Origin: Branchiostoma floridae
Taxonomy: Eukaryota > Chordata > Leptocardii > Amphioxiformes > Branchiostomatidae
DNA length: 64,000 nt
Reading direction: 5' to 3'
Assembly: GCF_000003815.2 (NCBI RefSeq)
Contig: NC_049979.1
Location: 20,160,291 to 20,224,290 of the forward strand
The position numbers and the translations under genes are program-made. The notes beneath the pieces are model-generated. The model had not been told where the DNA came from, did not search any database, and saw only the letters and a program-made list of their open reading frames with translations. Shown piece by piece: positions 40,990 through 58,263 of this stretch. Numbering within the stretch: position 1 is the stretch's first letter; each line of letters starts with the position of its first letter.

Positions 40990-41790
40990 TCTGCAGCTGG
41001 GGATCAACGACCTTAATTTTTTAAAATAAGGTCATTGACCCCTCTGGCTATTGGAAAATGACAAAAAAATCCCCAAATATATCATTTTGACGTAGTCTAT
41101 GACAAAAATTATACATGTGTCATTTGAATAAATATCTAGTGCACCCTTTTACCAAAATTTAGGTCATTTGGTTTTAAAATCAGAGCACAAGAACCAAAAG
41201 TGTAATTTTTGGTCATAAAATGGCCAAATAATCGCAAAATTGAGCATTTTATTGTACTGTATGCCTCAAGTGTTATTGAATCCATGTGCGCATATATCTA
41301 GGGCACTCCTATACCAAATTTCAGGTCATCCGGTTCTAAAACCAAGGTACAGGAGCCAAAAGTGTCCTTTTTTGGTAAAAAAATGACCAAAAAATCGCAA
41401 AAATAAGTATTTCGTTATACTGTACACCAAAACTGATATTGAATCTATATGGGGGACTTATCAAGGCACATCTGTACCAAATTTCAGCTCATTCGGTTAT
41501 AATACCAGGGTACAGGGGGCCCAAATATACAGTTTTGGTCTTAAGATGACCAAAAAACCTTAATAAAATCATTTAAGAGACAGATATGGAAAAAATGAAA
41601 AAAACGTCCGAGGGTATTGGCCCACTCTACCCTTGTGCCAAATTTCAAGTCATTCGGTTGAGGAACAAGGGAGATACCGTGTTCTGAAGATTTGACAGGA
41701 GAAAGAAAGAAAGAAAGAAAGAAAGAAACATTACGAATACAATATATTTCACCATACCTATGGTATGGCTGAAATATAATAATCCTGCCC
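40990..41790. repeat. Repeat element with tandem core, GAAA microsatellite and terminal hairpin
   Basis: Four degenerate units of about 120-180 bp share CCAAATTTCAGGTCATTCGGTT and GGTACAGG-GCC-AAA blocks (near 41150, 41320, 41480, 41638). A (GAAA)n tract follows (about 41700-41728), then a palindrome TTTCACCATACCTATGGTATGGCTGAAA near 41748-41775. Non-coding. The layout (tandem core, microsatellite, 3' hairpin) resembles non-autonomous Helitron/Helentron-type elements; that classification is inference. Confidence 0.55.
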
Positions 41791-43938: not shown

Positions 43939-46900
43939 ATGGCGCGTTTTATCCTGCACCTGAGCATCGTGGTTGTCGTTCTGTTTTCCGTCCCAATCCA
44001 CTGTCAGAAGAAGAACGAATCCGAGGGAGTGATATTTTTGGACGAGTACGACACACTGGCGAAGGAACTGCAGAACCGTGCCGTCATCGCTGGATGGAAC
44101 TACCAGACGGACTTGACTGACGAAAACGCCAAGAAACAGGTATCAAATATATCCTCAACTTTGTCTCTATGTCTTCTGTTTTCTTTAGTCGGGCAAAACT
44201 GAGATTGAGAACAAAAAAACGCAACGCATGTACTAGCGCCCGTTTCCTTGTCTCATGGGTTGGGCGGGGGTCTACGGTAATATCCCAACAAATGAATATG
44301 CCGTTTTACGTCTCCAGTGGTGCACTCTTTCTTTGGTCTTTATTGGTATAGAGCTATCTAAAGGTTAGCTGCTGTAAAAAAGACGTACAAAATAATTCAA
44401 AATCGTCCGAGACTAAGCCAGATCCAAACACACCTATGAAAGCACAACTAAGTAAAGCATTGTGCGTGTGGCATTTTTTCAAATCATTGCAGCTAGTGAG
44501 ACCGGTCTTACAGAAACTCGGCAATTCTCAGTGCAATTATGTCTGTTATTTTGTTTACCCACATTTTTGCAGATATACCAGGTATTGTTTCCTGGATCGT
44601 CGACAAAAAACTTGTGTATTACTTTTGGCAAACAAGTCTGACAGCGCACCTGAAAACTTTGTAATCATTTACGTGACCTGGCAGTTATCTAAGTTGAGGG
44701 AACGGCTACTCCCTCATTATCAAAGTGCATATTTGCACCACAATCTCTACTGAACAAACAAATCCTTACACAACTGCGCAGTATGAACCCAACCAACATC
44801 TTGTTGCGTTAGTTTAAAGCAGCAGGTCAAATATGTATATATCTATACTAAAGAGAAAGAAACAGAATGTTGATGAATAATGAAGGATGAAAATTATATT
44901 GCAACACAATAGGAGCAAGAAGGAATGGGAGAAGAACAAATCACGAGTATCTATTTTCGTTCGGCCTTTTTTGATGAAGAAATTATTCAAGGAGTGAGTG
45001 TTCAGAAATGGGCTGACATAGAAATGGCAACGGAAGGTACCTAGAAACAAGACAGATATGTCCATATAATATCTGTAACCTACTTTATAACGAGTGTTCT
45101 GTGCGTTGGAGACCAGACGTGAGATGGACTTCGGTCTCTGGCCGGCTCGTGTCGTGCCCTTTACTTAACCCCTTTTTAGGTTTTTGCAAGGGTCATACTT
45201 TCCACGGTGGAGATCGATAAGGGACTGCGTCTCCAAAAAACAACCCCCTCAATCACGCCTTAGTGACGAGAGAGGCCGGTAACGCTGGTTCACCTTTATC
45301 CGTGGGGTAATCTTTATCCGTTGTTTTTCAAAACAGCGTATTTAGGGATATGAAGTCGACAGACGGTTGTTTCAAATTGTAATATATCCAAAATATAGCA
45401 GCTTGAATTCAGATTTCTTAGGCATGATATCCCTATTATAAATACCCTGCTTTGAAAACAACGACTATAGGTTACCACGCGGATAAAGGTGAACTAGGGT
45501 TACCTATTATAATAAAAGACCGGGAAAGAAATGTAACGTCTCATATTTCCGGAAAAAAGTTGAGCTGTACGTGCACTTTTCAACACAACACACAAAAGAT
45601 CAGCTCCAGTCTTTGTCAAGAAAGGAAGAATCCACTGCACCTGTGTTGGAACTTACAGTTCACCCTTTTCCAGACTTTTACCAACACAGATGAACTTTCA
45701 AGTCTTTCAAGTCATGAACTTTCATTCCGTTGTAGAAGGTGTTGCGTAGTATTTTAGGAATGTGGGGCGTTATCAACACGACCTGGTTTTATCTGGAATT
45801 TTATCTAACTAGTTAAATACAGTTGGTCGATGACCAGACTTTCAAATCAACGGTTACAAGAAGGAGTAAATGCCACGTTGTGCATTTTTTGTATAGTACA
45901 CCCCTACACACGCAAACCACTACCGCCACCACAATCTTTCCTACTCCACCGCCTCTATGAAGACACCAATAACCTGCTAACGTGACAAACTACACATTGA
46001 TTAAACACTTAATGTGGATGGGGTTATCATATGGTTATTCTTCCACTTACCAAGCTCATGACCGTTGGAAGATTGGCAGGTTGTGTGTGCTTTCACTGGG
46101 CGCCAGGAGTAGTATGTCAATAACCTGAACCTCATCATGAAAAATCGGCTATACTTGCCCCCACCCACATCCCAACTACCCCATCCGTCCCCAATTCGGA
46201 TGTCCATCGGGACAATTGTGTGGCTTCAGATCTAGAACCCAGTCGGGGCTTTGCACTTTACGGGCACAGTACACCCGATGCAAATGTGACCGTAGCACAT
46301 GACAAACTTTTGTGAATCTTTTCTGTAAAACTTAAATACTTTCACAGGTTGAGCTGAACTTGGAGGTAGCAAAGTTTGCCAAAGAGGCGGCCACGAATGC
46401 CTCCCGAGTATGACTGGGAGAACTTCAGCAACGTCACGGTGAAGCGGCTGTTCAGTATGATCACCACGCTGGGCACGGCCGCTTTGGAGGACGAGGAGAA
46501 GCTTGAACAGGTGTGATACCACAAACAAAAATGACTTTATAATCTATAACAAACGAAACAATCTGTTTCAGACATTGCCAAGTATTACAGACTTGCATTC
46601 AGAGTGCAGTAGTACAATACTGTGTACTGCATCTGTACCTGGTGTGCAAATGTATTACATACGCATCGATCTACCGTTGTATTTTGAAGAGATCTACAGT
46701 CATTGTATTCCCTTGACGACGCAGGTAGAAGATATAAATCAGATCTGTTATCCACAAACATACTGAAAGTGAATACTGTATTTTGAACACACACAAACAC
46801 ACCTTCCCTGCTCCAATTTCACAGTTAAACAACCTACTATCGGAGATGGAAGAGATCTACAGCACAGGGCAGGCCTGCGAGTATGACGACCCCAAAACGT

Positions 46901-49900
46901 GCCTGGATCTGAACCCAGGTAAAAGGTCAAAATTCATTCGGACGATATAAACAATGTATGTATACCGCATACTTGTATTCTAGATTTGGAAAGTATGCGG
47001 TACTATGCATTATTAATTTGGGCCCCGCGAACGACTACTTAGTAAGCAATGTACGGCTTCAAAATCTGTACTGTCGATTTTGGTGACGCCTCAGGAGCGA
47101 AACCCGTGGTGTCACAACACCACGGTATTGGAGAAGTTTCAAACCCATGCATTCCCTAGGGTATTTCTAATGTTCCTGGATGACTTGATTTTCGTAGTTG
47201 CCTCTTGAAACCTGTGACTAAAATCGCACTCCTACTCGACAGGCCTGGAAGACTGCATGGCCGACAGTACCGACTATAACAGACTGCTGTTCTGTTGGGA
47301 GGGCTGGCGTGACGCGGCCGGGCGCCGTCTCGGAGATCTCTACTCGCAGTTCGTGGAACTCAGTAATGAGGCCGTGAGAGCAGATGGTAAGGGGAAACAT
47401 TAGCAGTTGACAACAGACCAAAGCTTAACATTGAAATTTTGTTTTTGAATTTGATTAGAGAACAACCGTTTAAGGAGCTATTTCTGTTACACGGAGCTGC
47501 TCACTAAGAAATCATGTTTCCTCACTCTGTATTTACCTCCGTGAGAGCCGAGGTATTGGTTTCGATTTCATTGTTTGTATTGGGATGTGTGCAAGGTTTT
47601 ACCTCTGGTCGGGGTCCAAGGTGCAGAATTTGTGGCGGGAAAAAGTGTGACTGTAGATTGGTTTAGCCCTGATCCAAAATTGATGGCAGAAACTGGGTAC
47701 AATCAATGTCTCACAATTGCAAGAAGTCAGGGAAATGCAAAGACGAACTTGGTGCAAAGACGAACTTGGCGATCGAGAAATTCACAATAATCAATAAAGC
47801 TAGAAATTCACAAAAACTTGAATATTTATACAGCACGGAAGTATGAGATGTTCCCCTGTTCATTTAGGTTGGAATGACACAGGGGAGTACTGGCGATCCT
47901 GGTACGAGACTGCAGACTTGCAACAGCAGCTGGAAACCATCTACCAGGACCTACAGCCGCTGTACCAGAACCTGCACGCCTACGTCAGGAGGAAACTCAT
48001 CAACACGTACGGAGCGGAAATGGTGAACGCCGAGGGGCCAATCCCGGCCCATCTATTGGGTGAGACTAAATTTGAGACCATGTAAAACTGTCATAAGCTG
48101 AACTGCATTCGAATACACAACACAACACAACACAACACAACTCATTGAATTTTAGCCATCTTCTTCAGTCTTCGTCAAGTTGGAATAACTTAACAGGTCA
48201 CGTGATCTTACAAACACGTGACGTCACAAATTGTAAACGGTGTCAGGACGTTTATATACCACCCTGTCTCTGTGTGTCAGGCTATAACTTATTTTGTGCT
48301 CTATTGTGATCCATCGTAGGTAACATGTGGGCCCAGACGTGGGGAAACATCTACAACCTTCACTGGAAAAAATGGGTTCAAATGCAGTCAAATCCGGGCC
48401 GTTATCTTTCCGTATCCTTGAAGGATACGATCGTTTACGGACAGATGCGAGCGGAATCTGTTACGGATCCGAAATTTCGGATTTTCTCGAATCCGGACTA
48501 ATTAAACACGGAAAAATACGAAATCCGTATTTTTGGCAAATACGGTAGTGGATCCCATTGGTATTTTTTCGTATCCTTACCGCGGAGAACACGTCGAAAC
48601 GTCGGTATTTTTCCGTATACTAACCAAATCCCAAACGTATTTGCTACGTATACGTAGATACGAAATTCGGACTTTCTCGGATTCTAACCAAATCCGAAAG
48701 CTGTATCCGCCCGTATTTTGGATACGTTTATGCAGATACGAAATGCGGATTTTCCCGGATCCTAACCAAATCCGAAAGCTGTATCCGCCCGTATTTTGGA
48801 TACGTTTATGCAGATACGAAATGCGGATTTTCCCGGATCCTAACCAAATCCGAAAGCTGTATCCGCCCGTATTTTGGATACGTTTATGCAGATACGAAAT
48901 GCGGATTTTCCCGGATCCTAACCAAATCCGAAAGCTGTATCCGCCCGTATTTTGGATACGTTTATGCAGATACGAAATGCGGTATCCGCCCGTATTTTGT
49001 CTAAGTTTAGATAGTACATACCTACGGAACAATTCAGATTTCGGATTTTCTTGAATGGGATCCAAGAAAAGTATACGTAGCAAATAAGTGGGGATACAGG
49101 TTTCGCATTTGGTTGGATCGGAAATATCCATATAGTCTTATATCCAGGTATATAATTTTGCGGCCTTTTATTCAAAACTTGTAGTTAACGTCGATGGCAT
49201 TGGGATCAATCGCAGTGACTGTGCAATTTCAAAATGATTCACGATTCTGTGCTGTGTCCAACCAATTGGTCCAACTCAGACTCCATTGTCCAGCGACACT
49301 CCGGGGCCGGGACCAGGGGTAGTTATTAAAAAGAGCACACGGTTCCAACAGGCTACGGAAGGAGGAATAATCCGCTGAGATTTGCGCAGTCCGATCCATA
49401 TGACTTGTGTTGGATAGGTCGCAAAGTTTGTTCACCTTGCAATCTCGGCTCAAAGTGAATTTACCATTCCGTGACCTTGCACAAATCTCCAACATAATCC
49501 GCCTCATCAACTTTGTACAGAATCCAGGCATCCTAGCGCATATAGCTTGGCGTTCTTTGGGTCGGCGGGGTCCCAGCTGGAAAGCAAAGTCCCGACCAGA
49601 ACTTCAGAGGTAAAACAGGTCCAAACTTTCTCCATTTCTTCTCCTCTCGCAACAGAGGCCCGGAAAATGCTTGCTTCGTCTCGCATAACGGTACATTTGA
49701 AATCCCCAGACTTGCCTGTCATTGGGTACTCCTTGTCACATGACTCTCATCTGGCCCGAACGGAGACCTGCCCCCCGTTGGTGCTGATTGCTTGTTTACC
49801 AATTAACACCGAATAAATTTACATTTAAAAAGCACAGTGGCTGTGACACGCATTTGACCCGGACAAAACACATGAAACAAGCAACAAGTTACTATTATTT

Positions 49901-52900
49901 TACCAGATCGACGCTGAATGGCCGGGAGAAGTGTATTAAACCGTTCGATAGGCGCAGGCAGAATTTCTGTTAGGACGCCTTTCTAAAGATTCTACTTGTC
50001 ACTTGTAGCTTTAATACAATTAAACACTCGAATCCTGTGTATTTTGTTATATTTCATTTAGCCATTTATAGCCTTTCTACAGCGTACGGATGGGTACGGA
50101 TCCCGGCAGATACCAAGGTATCCGTCAAATCTCTCAAATGTGGATGCGGAAGATTCCGAACAAATACGAACGAATCCCAGATTCTAAAGGATACGCCAAA
50201 GTACCGAACAGATGCGACACTGTATCTGCTGGAATTATAACACACAAGGAATACGCTGTCGTATATACATGGATCCCTGGCTGTCAACGAACATGGAAAT
50301 GCTCTTTTTGGGTCAGGAGAGCAAATTAATAGTTTTCAACAAACAAGGTGTATGTCTGATGTCGAGGAACCGTTCCGCATGCAATAAAGTTGGTTTCGAG
50401 GAAATCGGACATTGTTTCGCGAAACCTGAATTTTTTGTGAAAAATGCTCTTTTTGGCTCAGCAGAGGAAATTACCATTTGTCGACAAAAAATGTGTATGT
50501 CTGATGTCGAGGAACCATTCCGCATGCAATAAAGTTGGTTTCGAGGAAATCGGACATTGTTTCGCGAAACCTGAATTTTTTGTGAAAAATGCTCTTTTTG
50601 GCTCAGCAGAGGAAATTACCATTTGTCGACAAAAAATGTGTATGTCTGATGTCGAGGAACCATTCCGCATGCAATAAAGTTGGTTTCGAGGAAATCGGAC
50701 ATTGTTTCGCGAAACCTGAATTTTTGGTGAAAAATGCTCTTTTTGGCTCAGCAGAGCAAATTACCATTTGTCGACAAAAAATGTGTATGTCTGATTTCGA
50801 GGAACCATTCCGCATGCAATAAAGTTGGTTTCGAGGAAATCGGACATTGTTTCGCGAAACCTGAATTTTTGGTGAAAAAATGCTCTTTTTGGCTCAGCAG
50901 AGCAAATTACCATTTGTCGACAAAAAATGTGTATGTCTGATTTCGAGGAACCATTCCGCATGCAATAAAGTTGGTTTCGAGGAAATCGGACATTGTTTCG
51001 CGAAACCTGAATTTTTGGTGAAAAATGCTCTTTTTGGCTCAGCAGAGGAAATTACCATTTGTCGACAAAAAATGTGTATGTCTGATTTCGAGGAACCATT
51101 CCGCATGCAATAAAGTTGGTTTCGAGGAAATCGGACATTGTTTCGCGAAACCTGAATTTTTGGTGAAAAATGCTCTTTTTGGCTCAGCAGAGCAAATTAC
51201 CATTTTTCGACAAAAAATGTGTATTTCTGGTGTCGAGGAACCGTTCCGCATGCAATAAAGTTGGTTTCGAGGAAATCGGACATTGTTTCGCGAAACCTGA
51301 ATTTTTTGTGAAAAATGCTTTTTTTGGCTCAGTAGAGCAAATTACCATTTTTCGACAAAAAATGTGTATGTCTGATGTCGAGGAACCATTCCGCATGCAA
51401 TAAAGTTGGTTTCGAGGAAATCGGACATTGTTTCGCGAACCCTGTATTTTTTTGTGAAAAATGCTCTTTTTGGCTCAGGAGAGCAAATTACCATTTTTCG
51501 GCAAAAAATATGTATGTCTGATGTCGAGGAACCATTCCGCATGCAATAAAGTTGGTACGGAGAAAATCATACATCGTTTCGCGAAACCTGTACTTTTTGT
51601 GAAAAATGCTCTTTTTGGCTCAGCAGAGCAAATTACCATTTTTCGACAAAAAATGTGTATGTCTGGTGTCGAGGAACCGTTCCGCATGCAATAAAGTTGG
51701 TTTCGAGGAAATCGGACATTGTTTCGCGAAACCTGAATTTTTTGAGAAAAATGCTCTTTTTGGCTCAGTAGAGCAAATTACCATTTTTCGACAAAAAATG
51801 TGTATGTCTGCATGTTGAGGAATCGTTCCGCATGCAATTAAGTTGGTTTCGAGGAAATCGGACATTGTTTCGCGAACCCTGTATTTTTTGTGAAAAATGC
51901 TCTTTTTGGCTCAGCAGAGCAAATTACCATTTTTCGACAAACAAGGTTTATGCCTGATGTAGAGGAACCGTTCCGCATCCAATAAAGTTGGTTCCGAGGA
52001 AATCGGACATTGTTTCGCGAAACCTGAATTTTTTGTGAAAAATGCTCTTTTTGGCTCGGGGGAGCAAATTACCATTTTTCGACAAACAAGGTGTATGTCT
52101 GATGTCGAGGAATTTTTCCGCATGCAATAAAGTTGGTTCCGAGGAAATCGGACATTGTTTCGCGAAACCTGTATTTTTTGTGAAAAATGCTCTTTTTGGC
52201 TCAAGAGAGCAAATAACTATTTTTCGACAAACAATGTGTATGTCTGATCGGAAATCGGACTTCTTTTCGCGAAACCTGTACTTTTTGTGAAAAATGAGAG
52301 GTGGGGGTAACAAATCCATAGAAAATACGAAATGGTATTTCCTAGGATCCGTCTGCCGTGAGGTGGGGCAACGAATCCATAGAAAATACGGAAAGGGTAT
52401 TTCCTATGATCCGTCTGCTGTGAGGTGGGCAACGAATCCATAGAAAATACGGAAAAGGATTTGCTAGGATCCATCTGCCGTGAGGTGGGGCAACGTATTC
52501 GTAGAAAATACGGGAAAAGGATTTGCTAGGATCCATAGATTGACCCTGGACATTTCTGTCGCGAAGTGGGCCATCTGAACCATAGAAAATACAGAAAAGA
52601 GATTCGTTAGGATCTGCAGATTATCCTTGATGCCTTTTTGCCGTGAAATGGGCCAGCGGATCCATAGAAATACGGAATAGGGATCTTCTAGTATTTGTGT
52701 ATTTTCAGAACGTACTTTTATCGAAGAGTGGGCCCGCCGATGGGTAAAATGTTTTTATGACGCAAAAGGAAACTCAAGACCAGATTGAACATTGCAGATT
52801 TCCAAATTGAAGGATTCGAGCAAATGACATTTTCGTATTTGTTAACAGTAAGGGATCCAACTGTAGACGACATAGTATCTCTTCGTATTTTTCATCCTAG

Positions 52901-55900
52901 CGGATACAGTATCGTATCTGTTCAGTGTTTTGTCGTATCCTATTAGAATCTGTGATTCGTTCGTATTTGTTTGGATTCTTCTGCATCCGCACCTAACGAA
53001 TACCGCGGTATATGCCCGCATCCGTATCGGTATATGCCCGCATCCGTATCCATTTTGTCCAGTGCTTGTCATTCCGTTTCCCAACAAGCCAAGTATTGAC
53101 GTAACGGATGAGATGGTGAGACAGGTAAGAAAACTTCCAACATTTTTTCTGCTCGAGTCCCTCTTTATATAGGTATAAATAAGACAAAGTAGTGCTATCT
53201 AATGACATTTTATGACAATACAATGGTTGAATAAAACGATTTGAGAAGACACAAGGATTAGACTTCGATCGTTTCTCTGAGTTTCTTTCGCGCTTAAAGA
53301 TGAATGCGGACATGCAGGGGTTTTCAGTACACGTTCTATTACGGAAGTGTGGCGTGAACAATGGCTCAAATGTTGTTGGTAGTTAATAGAGATCCCCGTC
53401 CTGGTTCATTGATGGTAGATGTGTCGATTAACTTGTCAAAAACTTTGGTGATGTTACGAAGTTAATATTCTATTTACTACTACTCCGTATATCAACACAG
53501 ACTAACTTTCATGCTGTGTCCCACATTGCTATCTTATTTCCTAGCGTAAAAATAACCGTTAAATCATTTCTTTTGAAGGGTTACGACGCCCGGAGAATGT
53601 TCAACCTGTCGGACGAGTTTTTCCGTGAGATGGGGCAGATCCCGATGCCTGGCAGCTTCTGGGACAGGACCATGTTCGTCCGGCCTGACGACAGGGAGGT
53701 CGTCTGTCACGCCTCGGCATGGGACTTCTACCTGGACAATGACGTCAGGATCAAGATGTGCACGAAGGTGAACCAGGAGGACCTGGTGACGGTCCATCAC
53801 GAGATGGGGCATATAGAGTACTTCCTGCAGTACGCGCACCAACCGCTGCCCTTCCGCGAGGGCGCTAATCCAGGTACACTAGAATGAGATAGAACTTTCC
53901 AAAGATATTATCCATTAGTGCCACCTAGCTACTGAAAAAGCACTGCAGTATATCCCAGATATTCTTCACAGCCTAATACAGAGATCTAGAGGGAACGATT
54001 CGATGGAAAATAAGCAGCAACATTGGCTCTTTTTGTTTTTGATCGTCTATAACGTTACATGTTAAATATGTAAATAGTATTTTTATTTGCCAATCTCTCC
54101 AAATTTGAAGCAATATCTATTGAAGCTGGCCCGATTCGTGCCAATTATCGTTTGAAAAAGAAGACACCAGATTGCTAGTATGTAGCGTATGTCCTTTTGG
54201 CCGCCAGGGTTCCATGAGGCCGTGGGTGACCTGTTGGCTCTGTCCGTGTCCACTCCCGCCCATCTCAACAAGGTCGGACTCCTTCCCGAGCTGGTGGACG
54301 ATCCTGGTAAGTAGATATGGAGCTAAAACGTCTCTCTTGATCACAGCGTTAGCCCACCGGGTTAGCGATTTTCAACGTTAGCTAGGTTCTCTTATGTCGG
54401 GAAAGGGAGTTTGTTGAGGAAAGGAGTTTGCCGTGTGTGAAGGGAGTTCCCCGTGTACTAGTCCCGTGTACTAGAAGGGAGTACTAGTTTTCCCCAAGTA
54501 TGCGACGGGAGGCTACTCCAAGTCCAACTTAATAAATTCACTGTTTTATTCCTTAACGGAAAGGCTCAGCAGTTTTTAAAATCAAATGTTTTTGCAGAGG
54601 TTGACATCAATTTCCTGATGCAAATGGCGCTGGAGAAGATCGCTTTCCTGCCGTTCGGTTACCTGATCGACCAGTGGAGGTGGCGGGTTTTCGACGGAAG
54701 CACAACGAAGGACAAGTACAATGAGGAGTGGTGGAAACTGAGGTAGATGGGTAAAAACGTCAGTCTATGCTCTCAAAGCGATTTTGATAAAGGTGGCGGT
54801 TCATGGTAGCTTGCAATAGCATTTTACCGCAGCAGTTCAGTGCTTTGATATGAACCAGCCAGTCAGTGATAATGTATTTATAATCTTGTGACTTGTGACG
54901 TATCCTAATCGTGGGTAGTTTGCAGCTGAACGATCAAAACATTTCATGTGTAACCTTAAATGTGTTTTGAAAATAAAGGTAGAAATCTAAAATCATTAAT
55001 CGTTTGAAATAGTCTTTGTCTGCACGACTTGCTCTGAATGTTATACATTTGTACATGCTTTCCTCGTCGTTTAAGGACCCAGTACCAGGGTATTGTACCT
55101 CCTGTACCGAGAAATCCAGACAAGGACTTCGATGCTGGCAGCAAGTACCACGTTCCCGCCAATACTCCATACATAAGGTACGGGGCACGTTTGATTAATG
55201 TGTTCTCTACAACGTCAATACAAATGTTTAAGAACTGACATAATTCTTATTCTGTTAGGGTGACTTCAAATGCCAGTGCTGTCGATGTTTCCTTCTTGGC
55301 GGACCCACTAAAAGTTTACCATTGTGTATCTTCTATCGGGTGGTATAAACCACACAGTTCATTTTGCCGATAAGGTACTGGTCACATTCGTCGCACGATA
55401 AATAAACGACAGCAACTTGAGGATCGTCTTGGCTGCGTCGTAGAAGACGAGCAACACTCAGAACAAAAAAAACACGAACCCAACCCAACAAAACAAAGAA
55501 ACAAGCAAATACACACGTACACGGATTGCGTTTGGCTGACGTTACGACGTGCACACTCGGAGAATGTGAGATATGTAGTAGTAGACTACTGTCTGTTGAT
55601 AACTTCTGTTCCACTGTACTTGCAGATACTTTGTGAGTTTCGTCATCCAGTTCCAGTTCCATGAGGCCATGTGCAGTCTGTCGGGCTATACAGGAGACCT
55701 GCACAAGTGCGACGCGTCCGCCGGGGCCATGAAGGACGTAGCCGGCAGCAGACTGGCGTAAGATTTAGTGTTTTACCGTACTACGATGCAAAGGGACTCA
55801 ATTTTCTACAAAACAAACGTACACTATTGATGTCCCAGAAAGTAGGCAAACTTATTCCCATTTTGGTAGAGCTTGAATTAGCAACTAGAAGCTCAAGCTA

Positions 55901-56348
55901 TTTAAAGAACTAAAAAAAAGTTACCGTCACAATGGCTGTGTTTTTGCAGAAGTCGGACATGTAAGCATGGTTTTACCGACGTCTACTGAGATCAAGGTTT
56001 CATCATGACATACTGTAAATGCATTTAAGTTCGCGGGGATTTAATTTCGCGGTAGCGGGAAAAAGGACTTTTCGCGGTGGATTTAAGTTCGCGGTAACAC
56101 CATCGACTGCAATCTAATACCATAATAGAAAAATGTTCGCGGTGGTTTTAAGTTCGCGGTGAAGTGGTCACCGCGAAAACCGCGAACATTAATCCACCGC
56201 GAACATTTCTGCATTTACTGTATGTAAAATGAATCTATTTCAAAAGCAACCATGGAATAGAGACATTCAATATCAAGTGTTGCTTACATCTATCTTTGGG
56301 GGGAGATAAAAGATGAAGAGATAGCTACAGACAGGCAGATAGACAAAC

Positions 56349-56393
<45 letters not shown>

Positions 56394-57590
56394 ATCAGAA
56401 TGTTAATGTCTATCATATTGCAGTGAAATGTTGAGGATGGGAAAGAGCCAACCCTGGCCGGAGGCGTTCGAGGTTCTGACCGGAGATCGTGAGATGTCCG
56501 CGGCCGCCATACTACAGTACTTCGCTCCTCTGATTGACTGGCTGGAGAAACAGAACGAGAACGAGACTCTGGGCTGGAATAACGGCTGGACCCCACCATG
56601 TAAGTCACGACGTTTTATGAGAATGAAACAGGAAAAAAAGTGACAAAAAAGCTATATCAAGGAGAAGTGTCTTGAAAATCTGTAAAAAAATTCATCGTAT
56701 AATAGCGATTTGCATTGTGCTTCTCTATTAGTCGATTTTTGTCGGGATTTGTTCTCATTGCCGTTCTATCGCCCGGTAATGGTCAACTAGCGTCATCGTG
56801 CGGCAAAGTGTTTGAACTGCATGCGCGATGAAGGGGAAGAGTCTTCACGTCAAAGCATGAAACTAGTGAACAATCAGCCAGCTGGGTTGTTGTCGGATAA
56901 GTGGATTACGATATTAGCCTTTAAATGAGTCATCGAAATTTTAATCATTGAGCACTTCCACTCCATACTTTTATTTCAGGGTACACATGATTGTAGAGCA
57001 TATCATAGAATGCCATGCATCTAACGTTACTCTTTTCTGGACAAAATGCCCATGTCTGTTACCATTTGCTTGTCTTTACATAAATTGCTTTATTATATTC
57101 CATCTGCGCACCTGTACAGACGACTGTGAGGGAACAGGTGGCTTCACGTGTCTGGAGGGGTCCAGGTGTGTCCGGCCTGCCGACAAGTGTGACGGGATCC
57201 AGGACTGTGACGACAACTCAGACGAGGATCCGATCCTCTGTGAAACCCCGAACGGTAGGTCTTCGATCTACAGAGCGTTTTCATGTGACATGATATATAG
57301 TGGCAACAACATGGAGGCGTACCCAGATATTTGCTTTTTTTTTACATCTAAGCATCTTCTAACAATCAAACTCTAAACTAATATTTCAGCTCACAAAAGA
57401 GAATACTAGAATATCGCATAGAAATGTAACGTTGGTAGCGATAAGAACGAAAAACGATTATTGTTTGCCTTTGACTTTTTACATTGTCAATTTGTTGTTC
57501 ATCACAGATGATTCCCCAAGAATGACATCATCACTTGTTGTCGTCTTCCTGGCAGTCCTCGCCTCGACAGTGATGACGTCAAGGATCTAG
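43939..57590 (+). CDS. ACE: ACE-family zinc dipeptidyl carboxypeptidase with LDLa module, interrupted by a transposon and a frameshift
   Basis: Exons: 43939-44139, 46348-46510, 46825-46918, 47243-47386, 47868-48059, 48320-48360 plus 53068-53124 (one exon split by the insertion at 48361-53064), 53579-53873, 54208-54306, 54598-54742, 55076-55177, 55626-55757, 56424-56599, 57120-57254 and 57508-57590. Corrected length is about 685 aa. ACE enzymes (peptidase M2) cleave C-terminal dipeptides outside the cell. Seen here: a signal peptide (residues 1-22), [16 protein letters not shown], the zinc motif HHEMGH (about 370-375) with the third ligand in [17 protein letters not shown], and [17 protein letters not shown]. 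Exon 13 adds a six-Cys LDLa module ([13 protein letters not shown]). Exon 14 is a hydrophobic tail ending four residues before the stop, GPI-signal-like. Exon 2 carries one extra base (163 instead of 162 nt; stop TGA at 46411). Catalytic residues are intact, so the gene was recently functional or the disruption is allelic. Confidence 0.9.
44140..46347 (+). other. ACE intron 1, containing a MITE
   Basis: A 2.2-kb intron with GTATCA donor and TTTCACAG acceptor. Apart from the element at 45278-45504 nothing coding is seen. Confidence 0.7.
45278..45504. mobile_element. MITE with long terminal inverted repeats in ACE intron 1
   Basis: Left GGTAACGCTGGTTCACCTTT and right (reverse complement) GGTAACCCTAGTTCACCTTT continue as inverted repeats for about 70 bp (TATCCG, GGTAA, CGTTGTTTT, AGGGATAT). 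About 227 bp, non-coding, a separate family from the other MITEs here. Confidence 0.75.
46403..46413 (+). other. Frameshift in ACE exon 2 (one extra base in a CCC run)
   Basis: Upstream frame reads ...AATNASRV-stop at 46411. The frame one base later reads [18 protein letters not shown], which aligns with the family, and it runs to the phase-0 exon end. Flanking exons 1 and 3 are both phase 0, so the exon should be 162 nt, not 163. The CCC at 46403-46405 is the simplest site for the extra base. Confidence 0.85.
48617..48990. repeat. 78-bp tandem repeat, left subterminal region of the transposon
   Basis: CTGTATCCGCCCGTATTTTGG recurs at 48701, 48779, 48857 and 48935, an exact 78-bp period. Since 78 is a multiple of three, open frames of 173 and 184 codons arise on the two strands; these are repeat products. 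Confidence 0.95.
49140..50050. other. Unique core of the transposon, possibly captured or decayed coding DNA
   Basis: The only non-repetitive part of the element. On the minus strand two overlapping frames (49507-49722 and 49229-49531) have protein-like composition (for example [23 protein letters not shown], then [19 protein letters not shown]) and overlap as if shifted. No family recognised. This could be a captured host fragment or the remnant of an element gene. Confidence 0.35.
50295..52300. repeat. 145-bp minisatellite, about 14 copies, inside the transposon
   Basis: GCTCTTTTTGGCTCAG-type anchors recur near 50300, 50446, 50591, 50736, 50882, 51027, 51172, 51318, 51463, 51608, 51754, 51899, 52044 and 52190. 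Units share TCGACAAAAAATGTGTATG and GGAAATCGGACATTGTTTCG. Inner copies are nearly identical and outer ones more diverged. ORFs of about 70-77 codons in every copy follow the period and are not genes. Confidence 0.97.
52305..52720. repeat. About 62-bp tandem repeat, right part of the transposon
   Basis: Units of GTGAGGTGGGGCAACGAATCC...AGAAAATACGGAAA...GGATCC recur near 52358, 52420 and 52481. More degenerate copies continue to about 52720. Confidence 0.85.
56011..56222. mobile_element. MITE, TACTGTA/TTCGCGGT family, copy 3 (ACE intron)
   Basis: Perfect inverted ends TACTGTAAATGCA and TGCATTTACTGTA. The interior is a near-palindrome of TTCGCGGTGG and CCACCGCGAA units. Lies in the intron between exons 11 and 12 of ACE. 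Confidence 0.85.
56349..56389. repeat. GA microsatellite
   Basis: About 20 AG repeats in an ACE intron. Confidence 0.95.
57120..57254 (+). other. Exon encoding the LDL-receptor class A module of the ACE-family protein
   Basis: The exon has GT-AG borders and is in phase with exons 12 and 14. It encodes a canonical LDLa repeat: C-x-GT-GGFTC, [27 protein letters not shown]. The acidic Ca2+-binding cluster D-C-D-D-N-S-D-E is complete. LDLa modules bind basic or lipoprotein ligands. Such a module is not part of vertebrate ACE or ACE2. Confidence 0.9.
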
Positions 57591-58263
57591 AGGGCGAATA
57601 TTGTCGACGTCATGATTTAATTCGACGACGTGTATGCAATCATTGCAATAGCAAACCATAGCACAAAACTGCGTTTGCAATTATGAAGTAACGCTATGAT
57701 CGTTTTTACTGAATTGCTAGCTGTTTTAAACCTTTTACAGTCGAGTGGAAACATTGACCAAAAAATAGAGTTTTAAGTTAAGTTTGAATCATGAGTAAGA
57801 TATCAAAAATATTCTATTTGTGTCACGTACTACAAATACTGAACAGAAATTGCTGTAGCATGTTGTTACTATGTCTTCAGTATATTTTTTCTCTTACCTT
57901 TGAGTTACGATTCTATGTGAGTAGACACGCTGCATCTTTCACCCGCCCAACCCGGGTAACAGCGACACGACGTCCCCTGTCGACCTGTTAGGTACTGCAG
58001 CCCCTCACTAAACCAGGTGGCGTGTTCACTTGATAAAAACTGTGAACATGACATGAGATGTCGTTATGAGCTGCGCATGATCCGATGTTAACAAAATACA
58101 TGTATTGTATCACTTGGCTACACAGAGACTCTTTGTAACATGCATGTGCATAATCGATCATACATTAATTATTTTGAGCATTTTGTATTTTATATTGATG
58201 ACCCAATGATTACGACAATGCATTGTTTTATGCTCGAGTCATGTAGCCTTTTAAGGCTTGTTC
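57591..58263. other. Convergent intergenic spacer between ACE and hyaluronidase genes
   Basis: 673 bp that must hold both 3'UTRs. No other gene seen. Confidence 0.6.

Follow-up and report, generated by a model that had tools for sequence, protein, structure and literature searches.

Non-autonomous transposons of the CACTA/EnSpm type, such as the maize dSpm, typically belong to families whose ends are CACTACAAGAAA-like. Termini of the form 5'-CAC..GTG-3' accompanied by 3-bp target-site duplications are consistent with EnSpm (PMC12730594, partial text), and a soybean CACTA element has ends of 13 bp and subterminal repeats, produces a 3-bp duplication and inserts into genes (PMC2613891, partial text). 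Here we describe a 4,704-bp element of this general appearance, which lies within exon 6 of an ACE-like peptidase gene in a 64,000-nucleotide window of the Branchiostoma floridae genome (contig NC_049979.1, here C1:20160291-20224290; positions given without a contig count from the first letter of the window). Like the non-autonomous CACTA/EnSpm elements exemplified by soybean Tgm, it displays CAC...GTG ends, a 3-bp duplication, subterminal repeats, a gene as its insertion site and the lack of a transposase; unlike the known members, its ends begin with CACTGGA instead of being CACTACAAGAAA-like, its subterminal motif is of an ATACG type, and its interior houses 145-bp and 61/81-bp arrays. We are highly confident that this is a recent insertion of a non-autonomous CACTA/EnSpm-type element, moved in trans, which duplicated the target CTT. 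The kind of event is already known and ordinary, and the locus illustrates it clearly in a recent case.

The interrupted exon and the borders of the insert

The insert is bounded by inverted ends of the form CACTGGA(A/C)AAAATGG, namely CACTGGAAAAAATGG at the left and, on the reverse strand, CACTGGACAAAATGG at the right, which agree at 14 of 15 positions; the sole difference, an A at the left against a C at the right, recurs across the 17 copies discussed below. We scanned the whole window for pairs of inverted 15-mers (at least 14/15 identical, with matching 3-bp flanks and a spacing of 60-10,000 bp) and recovered nine, of which only the 48361/53064 pair begins with CACT: the other eight comprise four CA/GT simple repeats, one pair within the element and three others. 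The insert is free of Ns. A preliminary description of this DNA had already placed a CACTG-ended transposon with inverted ends and a CTT duplication here, and its coordinates prove exact to the base.

That description also held that an exon is precisely interrupted, and the host gene bears this out. When the insert and one CTT are removed, the two parts of exon 6 sum to 98 bp (41 + 57), which fits a start in phase 1 and a following exon in phase 0. Exons 5-7 thus joined can be aligned gap-free across the junction with both domains of 9clx_A, the best ACE chain (which we take to be human ACE), and the exons up- and downstream of these three match ACE as well. The gene carries the M2 domain PF01401, and the ACE alignment covers its HEMGH zinc site, the codons of which stand at 53795 in exon 7. 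Exon phases are consistent throughout the hand-built model except at exon 2; the remaining 13 all keep an open frame in their phases. The earlier remark that the frame is nearly intact elsewhere is hence correct for those 13 exons and fails at exon 2, where the frame changes.

Sister copies, class and a possible source of transposase

A search of the genome (513,431,437 bases in 431 contigs) with the first 300 bp of the element returned at least 28 matches, 17 of them at 99-100% identity, window copy included. Examination of 20 of the 27 other match places as 10-kb pieces yielded 16 near-identical copies, along with four diverged ones without a matching right end, so that the near-identical set totals 17 with the window copy. 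The right end is present in 15 of these; none was found in L023 and L030, both of which contain N gaps. All 15 copies with both ends share identical boundaries, and 14 show a perfect 3-bp duplication, with 12 different sequences among them (CTT, TAT, TAT, AGT, TCT, ATA, GGG, CAT, TAA, AAA, TGG, AAA, TTT and TGA). Matching 3-bp flanks in at least 14 of 15 copies would arise by chance with a probability of ~8e-25. The preliminary description had suggested searching the genome for copies that share these ends and carry 3-bp duplications, and had named copies with different boundaries as a finding that would overturn it; the complete copies agree on their boundaries without exception. Genome-wide, the end pattern has 40 exact matches and a reversed-pattern control has one; by position, 31 of the 40 fall within the 17 copies and nine outside them. 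Allowing one mismatch gives 316 matches against 141 in the control, a background high enough that we used only the exact matches. Viral contigs showed no match to two exact patterns from the element.

These copies also bear on whether the locus could be an assembly chimera that fused a repeat into the exon, for repeats provoke misjoins and the window contains three runs of Ns. We consider this extremely improbable: the chimera is strongly argued against by the boundaries that the window copy has in common with the 14 further complete ones, 14 of these 15 having 3-bp duplications, and further by the exact duplication at the N-free insert itself and by substitutions and a 22-bp duplication unique to the window copy.

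With regard to class, the preliminary assignment to a CACTA/EnSpm-like group is upheld by the inverted ends starting with 5'-CACT and by the 3-bp duplications without a fixed sequence. To these is added a repeated subterminal motif, ATACG/CGTAT, which reaches 23/kb in the ends (first 780 plus last 860 bp), against 1.3/kb in the middle of the element and 1.1/kb outside it. A Chapaev3-type element of the CMC group would be the nearest competitor, given that the ends of Chapaev and Chapaev3 likewise read 5'-CAC...GTG-3' and their duplications span 3-4 bp (PMC4079192, partial text). However, the Chapaev3 duplication is TWA according to the same partial text, and the present element has no such preference, with TWA in one of 14 copies; the 4-bp duplication of Chapaev is likewise missing, as the duplication extends to a fourth base in none of the 14. 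The subterminal repeats, too, agree with CACTA and speak against Chapaev, which leaves this identity very unlikely. Among the titles and opening lines of abstracts returned by our literature searches, none describes the element, though it may already be named in Repbase; the main text of an amphioxus transposable-element paper does not mention CACTA, CMC or EnSpm (PMC5802833, partial text).

In the CACTA/EnSpm scenario, a CACTA transposase encoded elsewhere would have mobilised the element in trans by cut-and-paste; the element would have entered exon 6 of the ACE-like gene with duplication of three bases (CTT), whereupon the ACE allele would have lost function, with the insertion continuing to segregate. 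The genome offers a candidate source, since the Tnp2-type CACTA transposase domain PF02992 has 28 matches in it, seven with frames of 760-956 residues, and none in the 14 control genomes.

Several observations weigh against this account. First, paired CACTGGA ends are absent from the four of the 28 PF02992 places that were examined, three of which were stretches of only 6.5-7 kb that could miss them. Second, the complete copy L036 (G000:C1:22986242-22996241) has unequal flanks, AAC and TTA; it is perhaps a recombinant. Third, the apparent frameshift of exon 2 means that the gene may already have been non-functional when the element arrived, unless it is a sequence error. The last point opens a tentative alternative, to which we accord a real if minor chance, namely that this ACE copy was already a pseudogene and the insertion a neutral passenger. 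Exon 2 measures 163 bp and contains a frame change, and diverged matches to the HEMGH-side exons elsewhere suggest paralogs able to cover for this copy; against this, the remaining 13 exons keep an open frame, every one of the 13 introns has GT-AG borders, and a single-base error in a gapped assembly would look identical. The apparent +1 frameshift is independent of the transposon, and we regard it as a further lesion that disables the gene or, alternatively, as an error in the sequence.

At one of the PF02992 places (L041; G000:C5:3597700-3607500), the 760-residue frame sits inside a candidate 7,493-bp element with CACTACA ends and an AAA duplication. These candidate ends, CACTACACGAAAGCT and CACTACATGAAAAGC, resemble the plant-type CACTACAAGAAA end. 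They differ at 4/15 positions and are one of 82 pairs tested; a second place, L044, has a candidate end beginning CACTAGAG with a CTA duplication, also with 4/15 mismatches and among other pairs. Both may be due to chance in view of the four mismatches in 15 and the lax scans. L042 and L043 showed no convincing end pair, while lone, unpaired resemblances to CACTGGA-type ends, each with three mismatches, occur in L041 and L043.

The ACE-like gene is not the only coding sequence struck. At L027 (G000:C3:4709883-4719882), the same transposon interrupts an exon of an H-type lectin, the duplicated bases being GGG, and the empty site restores an open frame of 110 residues, of which 48-108 match the H-type lectin domain (E 2.5e-15) and the junction falls at residue 51. 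We looked at 14 empty sites and, besides ACE, ran five junction open reading frames (ORFs) against Pfam; L027 alone passed the cut-off, L022 giving one weak match (E 0.034). Two copies themselves house nested insertions: that in L024 is 922 bp long, with long inverted ends and TA flanks, and is mariner-like, and that in L028 is 1,221 bp long, with GGCCATACCAATT-type ends and TAA flanks, and is Harbinger-like, both classes being judged from appearance only.

Age of the insertion and the probable fate of the ACE-like gene

Across ~1,109 bp, 16 copies (L032 being excluded for poor coverage) differ by a mean of 0.55% between pairs and by 0-0.54% from the majority sequence, with changes that are mostly private. 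The window copy has four private changes over 2,082 bp (0.19%), and the 17 copies pooled have 76/31,540 (L032 being left out of two of the three segments, and L023, L026 and L030 out of one), counts that sequence errors would inflate. In B. floridae, mutations arise at 5.89e-9 per base per generation, and the effective population size (Ne) is ~1.68 million (PMC12862219, partial text). At this rate, the window copy would be ~0.33 million generations old (0.09-0.84), and the pooled estimate is 0.41 million, against a 2Ne of 3.4 million. This would place the transposon burst some hundred thousand generations back, far younger than typical alleles in the species. As the burst age is far below 2Ne, the insertion probably still segregates, which a neutral insertion most likely would; the locus occurs once in the assembly, and segregation, which the preliminary description also raised, therefore stays a prediction. 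The recency advanced in the preliminary description thus stands, on account of the identity between copies, but the intact frame from which it was drawn is no clean evidence, because exon 2 carries the apparent frameshift.

With its exact limits and 16 sister copies, this recent insertion into an exon offers material for polymorphism testing in amphioxus, a group with a very high heterozygosity of 3.2-4.2% (PMC12862219, partial text). If segregation is confirmed, the ACE-like gene would have a naturally occurring loss-of-function allele, and a CACTA family would have moved within some hundred thousand generations.

As for the effect on the gene, translation reading into the element would add 46 foreign codons and then meet a stop ahead of the exon-7 HEMGH site. 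The element further places 13 AATAAA signals, all but one of which lie in the 145-bp array, on the ACE sense strand, against one antisense. The stop preceding HEMGH and the sense AATAAA signals in the transcript point to loss of ACE function, and the insertion most likely yields a null allele via premature termination or polyadenylation.

Splicing could in principle soften this outcome. The title of a 1990 work by Menssen reportedly refers to Spm ends mimicking splice sites. We scored sites with a simple, uncalibrated matrix, by which the right terminus, CCATTTTGTCCAG|TG, reaches 3.4 as an acceptor; the gene's own 13 acceptors range from -1.0 to 4.3, with four higher, and the site is among the best 2.2% of 3,689 AG sites on the + strand. 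Were the insert partly intron-like, the exon-5 donor might join this terminus, open and in frame through exon 7, to give an ACE mRNA 12 codons shorter in which V replaces a 13-residue segment; that maize Spm ends can mimic splice sites lends the idea a precedent (PMC4219821, partial text). Nevertheless, a stronger AG (score 3.9) lies in the last 400 bp of the element at 52899-52900, with an exon start at 52901, the segment that would be lost is conserved in ACE, and the frame would be kept by chance one time in three. The bypass is therefore improbable in our estimation. Clean splicing-out of the whole insert is not predicted either, since no GT within the element's first 140 bp scores above -3, the three passing GTs being at the start of exon 6 or within it. 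In this respect the element departs from the introners, many families of which have terminal inverted repeats and 3-9 bp duplications (PMC9860276, partial text): it shares inverted repeats, short duplications and an acceptor-like terminus with such a scheme, but by the uncalibrated matrix it has no donor in its first 140 bp, and hence no predicted splice restores the host exon.

More speculatively, one might envisage a very recently or currently active animal CACTA family, the right end of which serves as an acceptor and the array as a polyadenylation trap, with its insertions segregating as conditional gene-trap alleles and some ACE transcripts bypassing the insert in frame from exon 5. We regard this fuller scheme as a long shot.

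Internal anatomy and coordinates

The features of the element and its host gene are collected in the table. The number of units in the 145-bp array varies between copies, with 0 to 12 perfect cores (some copies having N gaps). None of the 16 ORFs of at least 60 residues lying within or mostly within the element matches Pfam above the cut-off, and, at a lower limit of 150 residues, no copy has a long ORF outside the arrays or one that is transposase-like. We judged as chance the weak matches of a translated tandem array to 13 Pfam families (best E 0.00057) and of a right-end ORF to two more (E 0.09-0.1).

Table. Features of the transposon and the ACE-like gene in window positions (a dot marks features given no strand).
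Feature	Position	Strand	Basis
Non-autonomous CACTA/EnSpm-type DNA transposon (very probable class), 4,704 bp	48361..53064	+	Ends, target-site duplication, 16 further near-identical copies
Left terminal inverted repeat CACTGGAAAAAATGG	48361..48375	+	Same in 16/17 copies; L035 differs by a single change
Right terminal inverted repeat CACTGGACAAAATGG	53050..53064	-	Identical in 15/15 copies having the right end
Target-site duplication CTT, left copy	48358..48360	.	Inverted-repeat/flank scan
Target-site duplication CTT, right copy	53065..53067	.	Inverted-repeat/flank scan
Left subterminal region, ATACG/CGTAT-rich, with 78-bp tandem array (48645-48982, 4.3 copies)	48361..49090	.	Motif density, repeat scan
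Low-repeat core without transposase homology	49090..50075	.	No Pfam match for ORFs of at least 60 residues
Inverted copy of right subterminal region (partner 52828-53026, 75%)	50095..50301	-	Match to partner
145-bp tandem array, 13.4 copies, 12 AATAAA on ACE sense strand	50297..52248	+	Repeat scan, motif count
61/81-bp tandem arrays	52298..52681	.	Repeat scan
22-bp perfect tandem duplication	53006..53049	.	Two units in window copy only; one or none in other 16
Right terminus CCATTTTGTCCAG|TG as a putative 3' splice site, continuing the exon-5 frame	53050..53062	+	Acceptor score
Single-domain ACE-like peptidase M2 gene, 14 exons	43939..57591	+	Hand model; PF01401; GT/AG at all 13 introns
ACE exons 1-5	43939-44139, 46348-46510, 46825-46918, 47243-47386, 47868-48059	+	Hand model
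ACE exon 2, 163 bp, apparent +1 frameshift	46348..46510	+	Both borders phase 0, frame shifts inside
ACE exon 6, 5' part, 41 bp	48320..48360	+	ACE alignment, phases
ACE exon 6, 3' part, 57 bp	53068..53124	+	ACE alignment, phases
ACE exons 7-10	53579-53873, 54208-54306, 54598-54742, 55076-55177	+	Hand model
ACE exons 11-14	55626-55757, 56424-56599, 57120-57254, 57508-57591	+	Hand model

Outside the transposon, the window also contains a 163-bp tandem repeat of 2.4 copies at 41132-41516. With its last two exons, the phases of which fit exon 12, the ACE-like gene appears to gain an LDL-receptor class A domain (PF00057) as well as a hydrophobic tail, short and possibly like a glycosylphosphatidylinositol (GPI) signal; vertebrate ACE is not known to have such an LDL-receptor domain. 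The diverged DNA matches to the exon 7-8 stretch are found in this genome (G000) on C16 at ~3.8-6.4 Mb and on C6 at ~17.17 and 24.65 Mb, and, judged from these matches, probably mark an expanded, partly clustered ACE-like family.

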